The notes under the pieces: generated by a model | What the model was told of the DNA's origin: nothing | Seen by the model: the letters and a program-made list of their open reading frames with translations, nothing else | Databases searched by the model: none | In this document: positions 1,002 through 7,557 of the stretch, one piece after another | How positions within the stretch are numbered: the first letter of the stretch is position 1 | Layout: every line of letters starts with the position of its first letter | Program-made: the position numbers and the translations under genes | Origin: a virus | Virus record (IMG/VR): IMGVR_UViG_3300021963_000753 | Coordinates: 1-21,511 of that record | DNA: 21,511 nucleotides | Direction: 5' to 3' (one strand)

Positions 1002-1034
1002 ATGATAAAGCTAAAAGATTTACTAAACGAAGGA
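1002..1034 (+). other. Putative prohead-protease targeting peptide and cleavage site
   Basis: Codes MIKLKDLLNE followed by G. T4 prohead protease sites have the form (L/I)xE before Ala, Gly or Ser, and targeting peptides of T4 internal proteins are about ten residues long; L8-N9-E10/G11 fits both. The protease gene is not in this window, so the assignment rests on the motif alone. Confidence 0.4.
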
Positions 1035-1739
1035 TTGTATCATGTAGGCTACAATAAAGGCAGAGGACAAGGTACGGGAGTTTTTAAAGATTCTTATTCA
1101 TCATATAAAGATGCTAAGAAAGCAGTAGAAAAGCTTGAAAAGGAAAGAGGTGGTTCATATAATATGGTTGCTTACTATGTAGCCGATAAAGATGGTAAAT
1201 TTGTAAGAGAATCGGTAAAAGAATCCGAACTTAAAGGATACCTAGCTGCAGATGTTGTGGATGATATTGTTAAATCAATTGGTTCAAAATTTGTAAGTGG
1301 ACAAATCAAAAACACACCTAATAGAAATTACATTTATCTCAAACTTACTGATATAAAGTTTGGAAATGATGTTGTAAAGATGTTAAAATCAAAATTTGGA
1401 ATTGATTCTAAAATAGATAAAACATTTGGTAACATACCATCCGTATCTTTTGCAAGTAAGAAAGTAGTTAGTGAAGCAAAAGCACCTTACGAAGTATATC
1501 ATAAATCATACACATCGGCAATTGAAGCAGCTAGAGAATATGCGGAAAAGAAAGGATTTGAAATAGATAATGATGATTCTTTTACAAAAATAGGAATGGG
1601 ACCTCGTAAACCATCGGAAGGTAAAACAAATAGATTTAGCATACAACTAACTAAAGATGGTAAGTTACAAAGAAAGCAACTTCATATCCAAGTATACGGT
1701 ATGAGGAATTCTTACGAACTAAACGCCTACATCGCATAA
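1002..1739 (+). CDS. Putative capsid-targeted internal protein with C-terminal conserved module
   Basis: 245 residues. The N-terminus MIKLKDLLNEG looks like the capsid-targeting peptide of T4 internal proteins: a short amphipathic leader ending in (L/I)xE, cut by the gp21-type prohead protease before a small residue. Here the cut would fall between E10 and G11. Residues 11-150 are basic and mixed alpha/beta. A break at VVSEAKAP (155-162) then leads into a separate module (163-245) with motifs GPRKPSEGKTNRFSI and LHIQVYGM; I believe similar ends occur on other phage proteins but cannot verify this here. It begins one base after the preceding stop (TAATATG). If targeted, it would be packaged in the head and delivered with the DNA. 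Function of the mature protein is unknown. Confidence 0.6.
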   Translation: MIKLKDLLNEGLYHVGYNKGRGQGTGVFKDSYSSYKDAKKAVEKLEKERGGSYNMVAYYVADKDGKFVRESVKESELKGYLAADVVDDIVKSIGSKFVSGQIKNTPNRNYIYLKLTDIKFGNDVVKMLKSKFGIDSKIDKTFGNIPSVSFASKKVVSEAKAPYEVYHKSYTSAIEAAREYAEKKGFEIDNDDSFTKIGMGPRKPSEGKTNRFSIQLTKDGKLQRKQLHIQVYGMRNSYELNAYIA

Positions 1740-1742
1740 TAA

Positions 1743-2558
1743 ATGAAACTTAAAGAGTGTATTATTGTATCTAAAGAAATAAATGATAAGTTCATTCTTG
1801 CTAAAAATAGAGATAGAGCTTACAACCCATCTTTGGAAATTGTACACACTATCATTGATGGTGTGGAAGTTGCATATCTACACGATTTAACAACCGATTG
1901 GAGTGAAGGTTTAAATGAAAATGGTATAGGCGTTGTAAACTCAGCACTATTGGTAGGGCACGATGAAGCAGAACATAAAATTGTAAAGAAAGGTGGAAAA
2001 CCTGGACCTGATGGTGATAAAATGAGAAATATCATCAAACAACCTACTTTAATGAAGGCGGTAAGAGCAGCATTACAGTATAAAGGTAAGAGTGGATTAT
2101 CTTTAAAAGGACATACGTTTGTATCATCACCCAAACATTTGATAAGTATTGAAACTACATCAAAGCATAAGCCTGATGTTAAACTACAAAACTCCGAATC
2201 ACCGGTTGTTCGTACCAACCACGGACACATGTTTACTGATGCGGGATATACACATGGTGAAAAGTATCTATCATCAAAATTAAGAAAAATATCAGCAGAA
2301 AAATCGGTTGATAAAGTAGAAGATTGGAAAGGAATAGCACAAGCTATGAGAAAGGAATACTTTCCAAATAAACCTATGTTAAATATGAAAAGGGACACTA
2401 AAGAGATGTCTACTTCTTCACAAACGGTAATGAATCTGACAGACCGTATATTACAAATTACTTATTTTAAGAATAAAGTAAACGAATTCAAGGGTATTAA
2501 TCGACAACTACCTGAAGGATACCAACCTAAGATTACAATTGAAGTAATCCCAGTTTAA
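1743..2558 (+). CDS. Ntn-hydrolase, C45/penicillin V acylase-like amidohydrolase
   Basis: 271 residues. After a five-residue leader (MKLKE) comes Cys6, which would become the N-terminal nucleophile by self-cleavage. The following block CIIVSKEI and then LAKNRDRAY matches the family pattern of a strand from the nucleophile to a (G/A)RNxDW-like motif; Lys21 stands where most members have Arg, and Asp24 is kept. Further family-like landmarks are GLNENGIGVVNSA (56-68), FVSSPKHLISIET (126-138), TNHGH (158-162) and a late strand STSSQTVMNLTDRI (223-236). Members of this superfamily hydrolyse linear amide bonds (penicillin V, bile salts, acyl-homoserine lactones, N-acyl ethanolamines) or transfer acyl groups. 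No signal peptide is seen, so it would act in the cytoplasm, at lysis or inside the virion. The substrate is unknown. It is the last gene of the first block. Confidence 0.7.
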   Translation: MKLKECIIVSKEINDKFILAKNRDRAYNPSLEIVHTIIDGVEVAYLHDLTTDWSEGLNENGIGVVNSALLVGHDEAEHKIVKKGGKPGPDGDKMRNIIKQPTLMKAVRAALQYKGKSGLSLKGHTFVSSPKHLISIETTSKHKPDVKLQNSESPVVRTNHGHMFTDAGYTHGEKYLSSKLRKISAEKSVDKVEDWKGIAQAMRKEYFPNKPMLNMKRDTKEMSTSSQTVMNLTDRILQITYFKNKVNEFKGINRQLPEGYQPKITIEVIPV

Positions 2559-2614: not shown

Positions 2615-3007
2615 ATGTCAACAGAATTCGAATTATTTAAAGGAAAGAATCTAAGTTCTCTTTTCGAAGACATCTATAACAACCAAACTTCAAAGAAGGC
2701 GAAGATAAGTAGTTTAATAGAAGAACTTAAAAAGATGATTAAGCATGCAGGAGATGTGGCAAGCGTAGGACCTATCCTATCCTCACTAATTGATAGTTCT
2801 GTAAAGAACGATGACCAATTGGTTAAACTTGCAACAATTGCAACTAAAATTATAGCATCCGAAAAGAAAACGGAAGGACAAGATGGATTCCTAACTGAAT
2901 TTGAAAAAAATCAACTACTCAGAGAATTAGAAGAAACTAAGCAAGAGGTAGAAAGGGTAGATGATTTGGAGTTTGAATTAGAAGATTTAAAAAAGAAAAT
3001 GAAATAA
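2615..3007 (+). CDS. Small acidic helical protein, unknown, precedes spike gene
   Basis: 130 residues, not recognised by function. Predicted mostly helical: residues 1-20 hold FELFKGKNLSSLFEDIY, 28-95 appear to be a helical bundle with repeated hydrophobic spacing, and residues 100-130 form a highly charged coiled coil (LLRELEETKQEVERVDDLE). No membrane segment and no cysteine. It opens the second block after a promoter motif and ends one base before the spike gene (TAATATG), so it is probably made together with the spike and the two peptidases. A chaperone or baseplate-hub accessory role is possible from position only. Confidence 0.7.
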   Translation: MSTEFELFKGKNLSSLFEDIYNNQTSKKAKISSLIEELKKMIKHAGDVASVGPILSSLIDSSVKNDDQLVKLATIATKIIASEKKTEGQDGFLTEFEKNQLLRELEETKQEVERVDDLEFELEDLKKKMK

Positions 3008-4258: not shown

Positions 4259-5536
4259 ATGTCTTGGGATATATTCAAACAAAATATATTAAACGTTGTA
4301 ACAAACCCAGAATCTATAAATTCAACCGATAGTGTTGCTGATTTATATGCAAAAGAATATGATGCAGCTATAAAAAGAGGTAGTGATAATTTATTTCAAT
4401 CTAAAATGAAAGTTGGAAATGTTGAAATTTTAAAATTATTTATCAAATCCGCTTTAGATACGGGAGTATCTCAAAAAGAACCATACGATTTAGTTGGTGA
4501 AATGGGAAAGGGAGTTTTAGCGTATTGGGCAGGTGCACAATTAGACCCATCATCCGTACCATCACCACCAACAACACCACCTGCTACTGGAGCGGTTCAA
4601 AATATTCAAATTGTAACTATTACATGTACCAATAGCGGTCAATGGCAACAACCAACTTTAGGGGGTGGTAGTGAGCCTGATTTAAGAGAAGGTGAAACGG
4701 AAAACGATGATATGCCTGATACTGAACTTGGTGAAACTCAAGAAATATTAGGAGAAGTTCCGGAAGATGAGGAGGTTAGTGAACCACAAGAAGTAGTAGA
4801 AGAAGAATCATCATTTTTTAATTCACAGGCCGAAGAAGTTGAAATTAGTGGAGTAGACCCAATAGATGACCCTCAAGTAGTACCACCACAACCTGCACCA
4901 ATTCCAATTGATACTTCTACTCCCGTTGATTTGCAAAATCCAACAGACCCAAACAATGCACCTATTGCTGATGTAAATAGTCCAAGAATAACAACAAATG
5001 TAGGAAAAACAGCACCACCACCTCCACCTGGTTTAGCAAGTTTTGGAAATGGTAAAATACCAAAAGATAAATTAGGAAGTATAGATGCATCTTATGGTGG
5101 TGGTATATTGCACATCGAAGCTGCTAAAATGTATAACAAACTGATAGCACAAGCCAAAAGAGAAGGAGTTAAGTGGAGAGTATCATCTACATATAGAGAT
5201 TATGCCGGACAAGTAGCGTGTTTTGAAAAATATGGGTCTGGTAGCGCAGCTAAACCAGGGTTTTCTCCACATGGGTGGGGATTATCTTTAGATTTTGGAG
5301 AAATTGCAGGTATGCAGCAAGCTAGAGCTTCTGCATTAGGTGTTGGTAGGGCAACACCATCTCCTGCTAGATATACAAGAGAAAACTCAAAAATTTATCA
5401 ATGGCTAGCAATAAATGGACCTAAATATGGTTGGTATAACCCATATAGATTAGGTGATGGGGCTGGTATGGATGAGGCTTGGCATTGGGAATATTGGGGA
5501 TTTTATACATTAACAAAAGAGCAAAGACAAGCGTAA
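4259..5536 (+). CDS. Baseplate-associated M15 zinc peptidase (VanY-like D,D-carboxypeptidase type)
   Basis: 425 residues. Residues 1-95 form a helical domain starting MSWDIFKQNIL and ending near YWAGAQLDP. Residues 100-275 are a long acidic then proline-rich linker. Residues about 275-420 are a peptidase M15 domain: SSTYR (309-313), H338 and D345 in HGWGLSLD, and E406 with H409 in EAWHWEYW. The zinc ligands H338, D345 and H409 and the general base E406 are therefore all present. M15 enzymes cut peptide cross-bridges or stem peptides of peptidoglycan. The position directly after the spike suggests tail-borne wall digestion during entry rather than lysis, but an endolysin role cannot be excluded. 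Part of the linker is shared with the next gene. There is a two-base gap after the spike stop and no Shine-Dalgarno motif. Confidence 0.85.
   Translation: MSWDIFKQNILNVVTNPESINSTDSVADLYAKEYDAAIKRGSDNLFQSKMKVGNVEILKLFIKSALDTGVSQKEPYDLVGEMGKGVLAYWAGAQLDPSSVPSPPTTPPATGAVQNIQIVTITCTNSGQWQQPTLGGGSEPDLREGETENDDMPDTELGETQEILGEVPEDEEVSEPQEVVEEESSFFNSQAEEVEISGVDPIDDPQVVPPQPAPIPIDTSTPVDLQNPTDPNNAPIADVNSPRITTNVGKTAPPPPPGLASFGNGKIPKDKLGSIDASYGGGILHIEAAKMYNKLIAQAKREGVKWRVSSTYRDYAGQVACFEKYGSGSAAKPGFSPHGWGLSLDFGEIAGMQQARASALGVGRATPSPARYTRENSKIYQWLAINGPKYGWYNPYRLGDGAGMDEAWHWEYWGFYTLTKEQRQA
4799..4906 (+). repeat. Linker block shared with the next peptidase, copy A
   Basis: Codes residues 181-216: EEESSFF, 12 variable residues, then DPIDDPQVVPPQPAPIP. 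The same arrangement occurs in the neighbouring peptidase although the catalytic domains belong to different M15 subgroups. It may be a docking peptide or assembly signal. Confidence 0.75.
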
Positions 5537-5537
5537 T

Positions 5538-6566
5538 ATGAGTGCTATACAACCAACCAAAAATCATAAATTAATAATCGATGAGTTCATACGATATGCT
5601 CAGCAACATTTAAGTACAGTTAGTGGTATTGTGGCTACTATATCTACATATCCTCCATTAAACACTCCTGGACCCGGAATAGCAAATTGGTCTGGATATA
5701 GTGTACAACCTGCAAATTTATCAGGACTAACATCAGAGGATTTTGAAGAAGCAGAAGCAATTGAGCGTGACATTAACGAAGAATATCCCGCAAATCAGCA
5801 ATTATATGAGGAGCAATTTGAAAGTGAAGAAGCTGCTATGGAAAATAATAGTGATGTTACCGAAGAATCGGCATTTTTCCGCGTAAACCAATATAATAAT
5901 GAAAAAGAATTCGGTTTAGACCCGATAACTGACCCACAAATAATACAACCGCAACCAGCACCAATTCCATTAGAACCAACACCAACTGGAGATTTACCGG
6001 AAAGAACAATAACAGGGCCTGTTGGTAGAGGAGATGAGGCGTTATTTAGAAAATGTGGTAATGGAGTATGGCCGGCATTAGGTACTGCTCCTAGTTTCCA
6101 AGTAAGTTCTACACAACCAGGCAAATGTACAAGATATTGGTATAAAGTAAATACAGAATATATGACAAAAAATTGTACACAAATAATGTTTCCAACTTCG
6201 AGTGGAGATAAAAAAATAACTGTACATAAAGATTTAGCGGCTATTGTTAAACCGGCAATTGTAAAGATAAAAGCATTGGGTTTGCAAAAATATATTGAAA
6301 ATTGTGGTGGTGGTTTAGCAGTAAGAAACGTAACTTGTGGAAGCAGATTATCAAATCATAGTTGGGGAACTGCTATTGATATGAATACTACAAAATATCC
6401 GTATGGGTATAAATTTAAGCCAGATGGGATTTATGCTGGTAATGCAAAGATAAGAGATTTGAATGAGTTTGATAGAGGATTTCAACAAGTAGCAGCTATA
6501 TTTAAATCGCAAGGAATGACATGGTTAAGTAATAATGACCCAATGCACGTTTCAATATATGAGTAA
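5538..6566 (+). CDS. Second baseplate-associated M15 zinc peptidase (L-Ala-D-Glu endopeptidase type)
   Basis: 342 residues. The N-terminal region (1-65) has a helix (HKLIIDEFIRYAQQ) and a GPGIANWSGYSVQP stretch that faintly resembles the end of the N-terminal domain of the preceding peptidase. An acidic region and the shared linker block (109-144) follow. The C-terminal 190 residues hold the catalytic domain: CGSRLSNHSWGTAIDMN with H274 and D281, and NNDPMHVSI with D334 and H337. This H-D ... DxxH layout matches the T5 endolysin/M15C-M15_4 type, in which Asp rather than Glu acts as base. Five cysteines lie in residues 170-268. It would cut peptidoglycan stem peptides, complementing the preceding enzyme. 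It starts one base after the preceding stop (TAATATG) and ends the second block. Confidence 0.85.
   Translation: MSAIQPTKNHKLIIDEFIRYAQQHLSTVSGIVATISTYPPLNTPGPGIANWSGYSVQPANLSGLTSEDFEEAEAIERDINEEYPANQQLYEEQFESEEAAMENNSDVTEESAFFRVNQYNNEKEFGLDPITDPQIIQPQPAPIPLEPTPTGDLPERTITGPVGRGDEALFRKCGNGVWPALGTAPSFQVSSTQPGKCTRYWYKVNTEYMTKNCTQIMFPTSSGDKKITVHKDLAAIVKPAIVKIKALGLQKYIENCGGGLAVRNVTCGSRLSNHSWGTAIDMNTTKYPYGYKFKPDGIYAGNAKIRDLNEFDRGFQQVAAIFKSQGMTWLSNNDPMHVSIYE
5862..5969 (+). repeat. Linker block shared with the preceding peptidase, copy B
   Basis: Codes residues 109-144: EESAFF, 13 variable residues, then DPITDPQIIQPQPAPIP. Twelve of the last 17 positions match copy A, with a one-residue difference in spacing. 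Confidence 0.75.
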
Positions 6567-6628: not shown

Positions 6629-7129
6629 ATGAATACTGATAAACTATTAAAAGCCATACAAATCCTAATAAAAGAGGAATTGAAAGAACAATTACCGGCA
6701 TTAATTAAGGAAACTGTAAGGACTGAAATGAAAAAAATGATAGCAGAAGGAAAACAACCTGCTAAACCAAAAAGTACTGGATTATCTATGGCCAAGGCTA
6801 TGATGGAAGATGAAACTTTGGTAGAATCTATTGAAAATAAAATAATAGGAGGAAAGCAATTTAGTAAAAACCCAATGATTAATCAAATTCTAAATGAAAC
6901 AGCAATGGCACCTACAACTGGTGATGGTGGATTCAGAACAATGAATTTTGGACAAGGTGATATGGGTTCAATCGTAGGTAGAACGGCAATAGCTGAAAAA
7001 ATGGGTTATGGTGATTTAGCAAAAGGACCTTCACCAACTGGTTTAGGTGTAAACACTGGAGTGCCTGAATTAGATAAAGCATTGAATAGAGATTATTCTG
7101 AACTTGTAAAAAGATTTAATAAAAAGTAA
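6629..7129 (+). CDS. Small protein preceding gp25, unknown
   Basis: 166 residues, function not recognised. Residues 1-40 are a charged amphipathic helix (KLLKAIQILIKEELKEQL, then TVRTEMKKMI). A basic Lys/Pro linker follows (EGKQPAKPKS), and the rest is glycine-rich and low in predicted structure (NPMINQILNETAMAP, TGDGGFRTMNFGQGD). The final A of its TAA stop is the first base of the gp25 ATG (TAATG), so translation is probably coupled to gp25. This suggests a baseplate or tail-assembly partner needed in similar amounts, for example a wedge accessory protein. Confidence 0.75.
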   Translation: MNTDKLLKAIQILIKEELKEQLPALIKETVRTEMKKMIAEGKQPAKPKSTGLSMAKAMMEDETLVESIENKIIGGKQFSKNPMINQILNETAMAPTTGDGGFRTMNFGQGDMGSIVGRTAIAEKMGYGDLAKGPSPTGLGVNTGVPELDKALNRDYSELVKRFNKK

Positions 7130-7557
7130 TGGCAATTGTATTAGGACAAAAGTTAGTACAAGATACGAAAAAATTTGATGATTTTGCGATAGGTATAACT
7201 TTGCCAATTCGAATTGGTAATACTGCTTTTAATCAAAGTTTTAAAACTGCGGAGCAAGCTAGTTCTAATATAAAAAATTTATTACTAACAAAAAGAGGTG
7301 AACGAATAATGCAACCTAATTTTGGTAGTGGTCTTCAAGAATTATTATTTGATTTTAATGATGATTCATTGGCTGAAAAAATAGAAGATACTATTACATT
7401 GGCATTAGAAAATTGGTTACCATATATAAGTGTTGATACGATTGATATAGGAGCATCTGATTTGGATAAAGATAATAACACAGTAAATGTATCACTTAAA
7501 TTTAGAGTTTTAGGAAACCCAGACTTAAATACAGTCACCTTTAATGTAGGTGTATAA
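7129..7557 (+). CDS. gp25: Baseplate wedge / sheath initiator protein gp25
   Basis: 142 residues, close to the 132 of T4 gp25. The diagnostic block is RGERIMQPNFGSGLQELLFD (residues 56-75), which matches the GPW/gp25 family pattern of an R-GER-MxPxFG motif followed by a helix. The C-terminal part is alternating strands (NTVNVSLKFRVLG). In T4 and related contractile machines this protein sits at the junction of wedge and sheath and nucleates sheath assembly. The next gene is the gp6-like wedge protein, as expected. It overlaps the preceding gene by one base, and an 11-base spacer leads to gp6. Confidence 0.92.
   Translation: MAIVLGQKLVQDTKKFDDFAIGITLPIRIGNTAFNQSFKTAEQASSNIKNLLLTKRGERIMQPNFGSGLQELLFDFNDDSLAEKIEDTITLALENWLPYISVDTIDIGASDLDKDNNTVNVSLKFRVLGNPDLNTVTFNVGV

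Follow-up and report, generated by a model that had tools for sequence, protein, structure and literature searches.

How does a phage uncover the catalytic residue of an enzyme that carries a peptide in front of its nucleophile, and where would such an enzyme act? The question is raised by an open reading frame (ORF) at positions 1743-2558, forward strand, of the window, which here means the whole stretch of viral DNA analysed (21,511 nucleotides, positions 1 to 21,511 of IMG/VR record IMGVR_UViG_3300021963_000753). The ORF is predicted to encode an N-terminal nucleophile (Ntn) hydrolase precursor of 271 residues with the expected nucleophile, Cys6, behind the leader MKLKE. The leader ends in L-K-E directly before the Cys, a candidate prohead-protease site. 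Probably the protein is an Ntn hydrolase that is packaged in the head, has its nucleophile uncovered by the phage's own S77 prohead protease and is ejected into the host. What sequence and model show is the fold, the position of the Cys, the leader rule and how widely it holds, the presence of the protease in these phages and the like leaders elsewhere; packaging, cleavage, ejection, activity and substrate are what we infer from them.

The ORF is intact, starts with ATG and contains the motifs quoted in a preliminary description made from the sequence alone: MKLKE (1743-1757) followed by C6 (codon 1758-1760), LAKNRD (K21-N22-R23-D24 at 1803-1814), GLNENGIGVVN, and TNHGH within RTNHGH (residues 157-162; R157-T158-N159-H160-G161 at 2211-2225). 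Three partly overlapping scans of IMG/VR found relatives encoded in 180, 371 and 440 confirmed stretches, and 80 loci were retained from each. As the same contigs recur among the loci of different scans, counts refer to distinct contexts or clusters, and neighbouring relatives are not independent counts. In an alignment of 37 members (50-94% identity to the window protein) C6, K21-N22-R23-D24, R157, N159-H160-G161, R181 and R217 are invariant. KNRD was never in the patterns of the scans behind these members, NHGH was in one of six patterns of one scan, and none of 233 loci was lost through the ORF finder's motif filter. Because relatives were confirmed and residues are invariant, this is no chance ORF. 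The only annotated phages matched were the Chryseobacterium phages MA9V-1 (44.2% identity) and MA9V-2 (43.8%), and no viral relatives were found with the protein of these phages alone as query. In species genomes, two scans gave 175 and 27 matching stretches, of which 0 were confirmed; given the patterns used, distant cellular relatives could be missed.

The AlphaFold2 model built from the 37-member alignment has a mean pLDDT (predicted local distance difference test) of 86.3 and a pTM (predicted template modelling score) of 0.87, with leader residues 1-3 below pLDDT 50. Foldseek matched it at E ≤ 0.001 to 35 PDB chains, every one an Ntn-fold enzyme judging by its title or known fold, the top match being isopenicillin-N acyltransferase (IAT; E 1.8e-9, TMq 0.62). 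A four-layer Ntn-hydrolase fold is thus well supported by the model, and the outcome that would have spoken against the preliminary description, a structure lacking this fold, did not occur. Structural re-alignment gave Z scores of 21.3 for CV2077, 20.2 for NAAA, 20.1 for IAT, 19.1 for acid ceramidase, ~17-18 for bile salt hydrolases and penicillin V acylases and 16.9 for TANGO2, where differences of up to 1 are ties. As modelled, the nearest fold type is the compact NAAA / IAT / acid-ceramidase type (Z ~19-21) rather than penicillin V acylase/bile salt hydrolase; of the assignment to a C45/penicillin V acylase type, the Ntn fold is supported. Most of the aligned ranges have residue 6 of the model and the first mature-chain residue of the solved enzyme as their starting points (residue 103 for the acyltransferase, 143 for acid ceramidase and 1 for penicillin V acylase, for example), which places the invariant Cys6 at the nucleophile position of the solved enzymes, as had been proposed.

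Family searches with single sequences were less informative. The window protein alone had no convincing match in Pfam, PHROGs, NCBIfam or PDB sequences, a 12-member profile found no PDB sequence, and the Chryseobacterium phage protein alone had no meaningful PDB sequence match. PF03417 (AAT), which we take to be peptidase family C45, matched 2 of 12 members scanned at E ≤ 0.001, both of them Chryseobacterium phage proteins and both just below the curated cut-off of 23.2 bits (22.3 and 22.0 bits). Among more distant proteins 7 of 10 matched at E ≤ 0.01, three of them above the cut-off (23.8, 24.6 and 24.3 bits). The window protein had no match to PF03417, and by sequence it is related to C45/PF03417, not placed as a member. 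Arg is usual in C45/NAAA-type enzymes at the position of K21. The replacement by Lys that had been pointed out is invariant (37/37) and Asp24 is retained, if, as we assume, K21-N22-R23-D24 is equivalent to the R-x-x-D motif. Asn159 is presumably the oxyanion-hole residue.

The leader set comprised 134 distinct nucleotide contexts from 289 loci, the ORF being found in 288 and missing in 1. Seven contexts start with Met-Cys, 123 have ATG-started leaders, and four have no ATG before the Cys and likewise end in L-x-E. With the nearest ATG taken, the ATG-started leaders are 4-12 residues long; more than one ATG is present in 11 of the 134 contexts, and the lengths of long leaders depend on the chosen start. 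The residue before the Cys is Glu in 123/123 of these leaders and the third residue before it is Leu or Ile in 121 and Val in two. P2, between them, is free (any of ten residues). On a 41-row tree the leader changes length at least 14 times while the [LI]xE rule persists, and leader and Met are switched at least 4 times, 2 of these being forced by well-supported branches. Extra [LI]xE sites, non-adjacent to the Cys, were found in 9 of 12 leaders of 17-60 residues among the matches listed (17 matches, overlapping ones included and L427 left out, vs 2.3 expected).

This pattern resembles a known one. As described in the available part of PMC9026906, the T4 prohead protease gp21 cuts head proteins after Glu in L/I-X-E, T4 propeptides are N-terminal targeting peptides of 10-19 residues, the first 10 residues of IPIII are enough to bring a protein into the T4 head, and phiKZ propeptides have redundant cleavage sites. 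In the present family L/I-x-E likewise stands directly before the presumed cut, and the residue that this cut would expose, Cys6, is aligned to mature first residues and is the first residue after Met in the Met-Cys members. Loss of MKLKE, anticipated in the preliminary description, is supported by the leader rule as the probable maturation step.

The gp21-family protease (Pfam S77, PF03420) was detected in 13 of 18 records of relatives, in 7 of 40 more distant records (mostly short) and in 4 of 25 records of the window clade, which are the four longest (47-63 kb). The search covered records other than the window fragment itself, and co-occurrence of protease and leader holds at clade level. 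Ten of the 12 searched [LI]xE-leader records of at least 100 kb carry S77, and two Met-Cys records of at least 100 kb also do. A prohead core protease is listed by the authors of the MA9V-1 description in its available part (PMC10537231). The S77 match in MA9V-1 and MA9V-2 lies in very long frames (1349 and 1213 aa; around 126606-126944 of OR050627.1 and 167084-167422 of OR513085.1), compared with frames of ~200 aa elsewhere.

Capsid proteins of these phages carry the same kind of site. The G006 capsid protein is of the gp23 type (phrog_138, E 5.8e-74), and homologues of it turned up in 11 of 16 records. All 11 have conserved [LI]xE sites in the N-terminal region, including one near residue 62 and followed by Ala (LDE/LSE in nine, VSE in two). 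T4 gp23 is cut at a similar place, Glu65-Ala66. Together, the leader rule and S77 suggest that these large phages pack the enzyme into their heads and deliver it into the host.

The enzyme, with its NAAA / IAT-like fold, would be made as an inactive precursor whose leader masks the active site and ends in a gp21-type (S77) cleavage site directly before the nucleophile. The precursor would enter the prohead, where the S77 protease would trim the leader and create the N-terminal Cys. The active enzyme would then be ejected with the DNA and cleave an amide bond of a host substrate. N-acyl lipids are the first guess: the NAAA-/ceramidase-like fold and the company of PAP2 and phosphatidylserine decarboxylase, described below, hint at a lipid. 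In Met-Cys members methionine aminopeptidase would uncover the Cys, and these members may act in the cytoplasm.

The main alternative is that the enzyme cleaves off its own leader as other Ntn precursors do, with Glu(-1) and the hydrophobic residue at -3 serving that reaction; its site of action in the infected cell would then be unrestricted. IAT, NAAA and acid ceramidase self-process, and the leaders of glutamine phosphoribosylpyrophosphate (PRPP) amidotransferase often end in Glu-Glu before the Cys with Leu or Ile close by. Self-cleavage exposes the catalytic Cys of the latter enzyme, and some of its members are propeptide-free (available part of PMC7056826); the same two states, leader-bearing and leaderless, are seen here. 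Self-cleavage is nevertheless rather unlikely, since a fixed P3 and P1 with a free P2 is the rule of a protease and since the long leaders hold extra sites not adjacent to the Cys. Two further observations argue against it: the same leader is found on unrelated proteins that have no catalytic Cys after the site, and in one clade, whose head lineage is different, the rule has switched to [KR]x[AG].

The first of these begins next door. The gene directly upstream (1002-1739, forward strand, 245 aa; best family match E 0.0092) has the leader MIKLKDLLNE (1002-1031) directly before Gly and is a candidate co-packaged cargo. This slot is variable, with unrelated bodies behind near-identical MIKLKDLLNE-like leaders (for example in L001, L010, L029 and L042), and 31 of the 106 upstream genes that could be used match a strict form of the leader pattern. 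Of the 1262 non-redundant ORFs in the collected loci, 43 others begin with the shared leader type; their proteins are unrelated to the Ntn enzyme and lack a catalytic Cys after the site. Asn precedes the Glu at a frequency of 0.35 in these 43, 0.36 in distinct Ntn leaders and 0.10 in the same motif elsewhere. By eye, an internal V-S-E/A in the upstream gene product (residues 156-158) precedes a part resembling a separate cargo ORF elsewhere. A cytidyltransferase-like N-terminal domain stands behind a leader of the same type (STFLAE, TKFLME) in large proteins of 1502 and 847 aa encoded beside terminase genes (G006 123643-128151, equivalent to L253 3643-8148, and L295 5881-8424).

The switch of rule emerged from a wider search. 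At least 115 further loci came from a degenerate pattern; the Ntn-like ORF is full in 109 of them and incomplete in 6 (these and the cluster counts that follow hold among the matches listed). The pattern fixed KNRD and W-S/T-x-G, so their invariance in the widened set is circular and the 37-member alignment is the fairer test. At 80% identity 67 clusters were obtained: 24 Met-Cys, 38 [LI]xE and five others, with leaders ending in FNE, LND, RLA, KEA and KQA. Clustering dropped 8 of 404 loci, of which L344 and L316 were printed as cut before the Cys. The longest leader would have 334 residues (L363) if the first ATG is the start.

One sister clade (21 loci, 4 of them Met-Cys and one, L463, with an unreadable leader) has [KR]-x-[AG] before the Cys in 16/16 non-Met-Cys rows, 15 of them distinct. 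None of the 13 records of this clade that were searched (the longest of 288 kb; the [KR]x[AG] leader was read in 11) gave an S77 match, in a run that included no positive control, though the same model matched in other record sets. The gp23-type phrog_138 had no match in any of 6 records, while G006, run as control, was positive. Since the sister clade has neither S77 nor phrog_138 detected, the leader rule goes with the head lineage, as far as this one clade shows. Two candidates for the protease of this clade were rejected: PF04586 (0/9 of its records, 0/2 other records searched) and phrog_3014 (0/10 of its records, 1/1 other record searched).

Sister-clade members also have the Ntn domain in long multi-domain proteins. 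The 958-aa product of L438 4854-7727 (forward strand) combines a PAP2 phosphatase, an Ntn-hydrolase-like part recognised by 40-43% identity to L376 and L346, and a eukaryote-type/type IB DNA topoisomerase I core. In L460 (2989-8511) the Ntn domain occurs with a topoisomerase and a pyrophosphatase-family domain, and in L464 (ORF ending at 6720) with phosphatidylserine decarboxylase and a poly(A) polymerase head domain. Taken together, the related proteins of L464, L465 (2995-6861), L466 (4053-6947) and L460 have topoisomerase, pyrophosphatase-family, phosphatidylserine decarboxylase and poly(A) polymerase head domains, either inside the Ntn ORF or adjacent to it. In L460 the pyrophosphatase-family region has further matches, to PHROGs with the names minor head protein, DarB-like antirestriction and endolysin. 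An RVASRY/RIASRF/RIAAKY-like motif recurs at protein ends or between domains (L438, L466, L462, L459); it could be a packaging tag.

A broader proposal, for and against which we see the balance as even, is that prohead proteases serve as activating proteases. They would cut leaders exactly before a Cys, and only while the head matures; the cell that makes the phage would thus escape the enzyme, which would reach the next host in active form. Two lineages would follow two rules ([LI]xE and [KR]x[AG]), and the enzyme would belong to a swappable injected set, fused in one lineage to lipid-, DNA- or RNA-acting domains.

The surroundings of the gene would fit another location. Downstream in the window lie a 130-aa gene of the LFxDIYxNQ type (2615-3007, no family match in Pfam or PHROGs) and, within the baseplate block, a VanY-type peptidase gene (4259-5536; PF02557, E 2.1e-17), an M15-type (M15_4) peptidase gene (5538-6566; PF13539, E 1e-7) and the gp25 baseplate wedge gene (7129-7557; PF04965, E 4.9e-15; phrog_261, E 1.8e-25), all on the forward strand. 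The two peptidase genes adjoin (4259-6566). Family matches confirm the VanY, M15 and gp25 genes on this side; no spanin or capsid gene was recognised in Pfam or PHROGs family matches in the upstream group it had called spanin-like/capsid. The enzyme could accordingly be a tail or baseplate component acting on the cell envelope at entry, beside the VanY and M15 peptidases, with the leader having another reason. Its gene precedes the baseplate block in 94 of 128 usable contexts and in the window it stands beside the two peptidase genes. This is improbable, as other clades place the gene in the head operon (L292/L295) or elsewhere under the same leader rule, and L/I-x-E cutting is described for head proteins (PMC9026906, available part). 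In G015 about 7 kb separate the Ntn gene, which precedes the capsid gene on the same strand, from the S77 gene. Neighbour identities in other clades were read by eye from N termini.

Finally, the protein could be a cytoplasmic enzyme of late infection, with the Met-Cys forms as the working state and the leaders as relics or removed without consequence. Met-Cys accounts for 24 of the 67 clusters, though 18 of these form one remote clade, and some Met-Cys genes (L165, L201, L216) lie outside structural blocks. Relic leaders would not have retained Glu and Leu/Ile across many changes of length, and this explanation is very improbable.

Several observations weigh against head packaging and activation by S77. 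Many leaders have only 4-5 residues, fewer than T4 propeptides, so targeting may need other signals. Cutting by S77 at Glu followed by Cys is without tested precedent in this analysis. S77 was not found in G011 (126 kb) and G037 (115 kb) despite their [LI]xE leaders, and Met-Cys members occur in the S77-bearing phages G008, G014, G047, G053 and G058. In MA9V-1 and MA9V-2, which have S77, nothing matched the G006 capsid protein, and the coupling of capsid type to leader is therefore not strict; for MA9V-1 the available part of the paper gives gel bands only (PMC10537231). The gene 3' of the Ntn gene in those 94 of 128 contexts is of the LFxDIYxNQ baseplate-block type and not a head gene. [LI]xE is common in these phage proteomes and its N-terminal enrichment is modest (1.5-fold; 2.3- and 3.2-fold for a stricter form; two large records); on these grounds we discarded the notion that [LI]xE close to the start marks any protein as cargo. 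The second rule is confined to one clade and is therefore one event, and its protease was not found with S77, PF04586 or phrog_3014.

If head packaging with S77 activation is true, capsid maturation doubles as enzyme activation: the cut that matures the head also gives birth to an Ntn enzyme. A readable leader would also predict which unknown large-phage proteins are packaged and injected. The Ntn fold and the T4 targeting principle are known already; the new point is the leader before the nucleophile. The [LI]-x-E rule, the similar leader of the adjacent upstream gene and the larger phage family, with its long-leader and multi-domain members, go beyond the preliminary description. No prohead protease exposing a catalytic N-terminal residue was found in the searches made of open-licence literature, and the titles and abstract beginnings of the papers matched there show no phage Ntn enzyme of the penicillin V acylase or choloylglycine hydrolase kind like this one. 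A tractable model exists, because the isolated phages MA9V-1 and MA9V-2 encode a homologue (~44% identity) and an S77-type protease.

Among known systems, C45/PF03417, NAAA and acid ceramidase share with the phage protein the Ntn fold, a compact single domain (Z 19-20) and, as predicted here, a Cys nucleophile opened by peptide loss, and remote members of the phage family give weak PF03417 profile matches. The phage protein differs in being viral, in its Lys for Arg, in its [LI]xE leader rule and in the lack of a PF03417 match for the window protein, with 11-17% identity in the structural alignments. The uncharacterised CV2077 of Chromobacterium violaceum (3gvz) has the best structural score (Z 21.3 over 223 residues) but only 16% identity. 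Penicillin V acylase/bile salt hydrolase (presumably family C59) and TANGO2 have the Ntn fold with Cys first; their scores are lower, the root-mean-square deviation is larger for many, and there is no sequence match. In glutamine PRPP amidotransferase the Ntn Cys is exposed by loss of a short propeptide, as predicted for the phage enzyme, and propeptide-free members exist (available part of PMC7056826), but processing is described as autocatalytic and both fold branch and function are different. The T4 internal head proteins and Alt share the N-terminal L/I-x-E leader, a gp21-type protease and the apparent swapping of bodies behind one leader. Compared with them the phage enzyme has an unrelated body, many of its leaders are shorter, its packaging is putative, and the cut would, in addition, create the catalytic residue.
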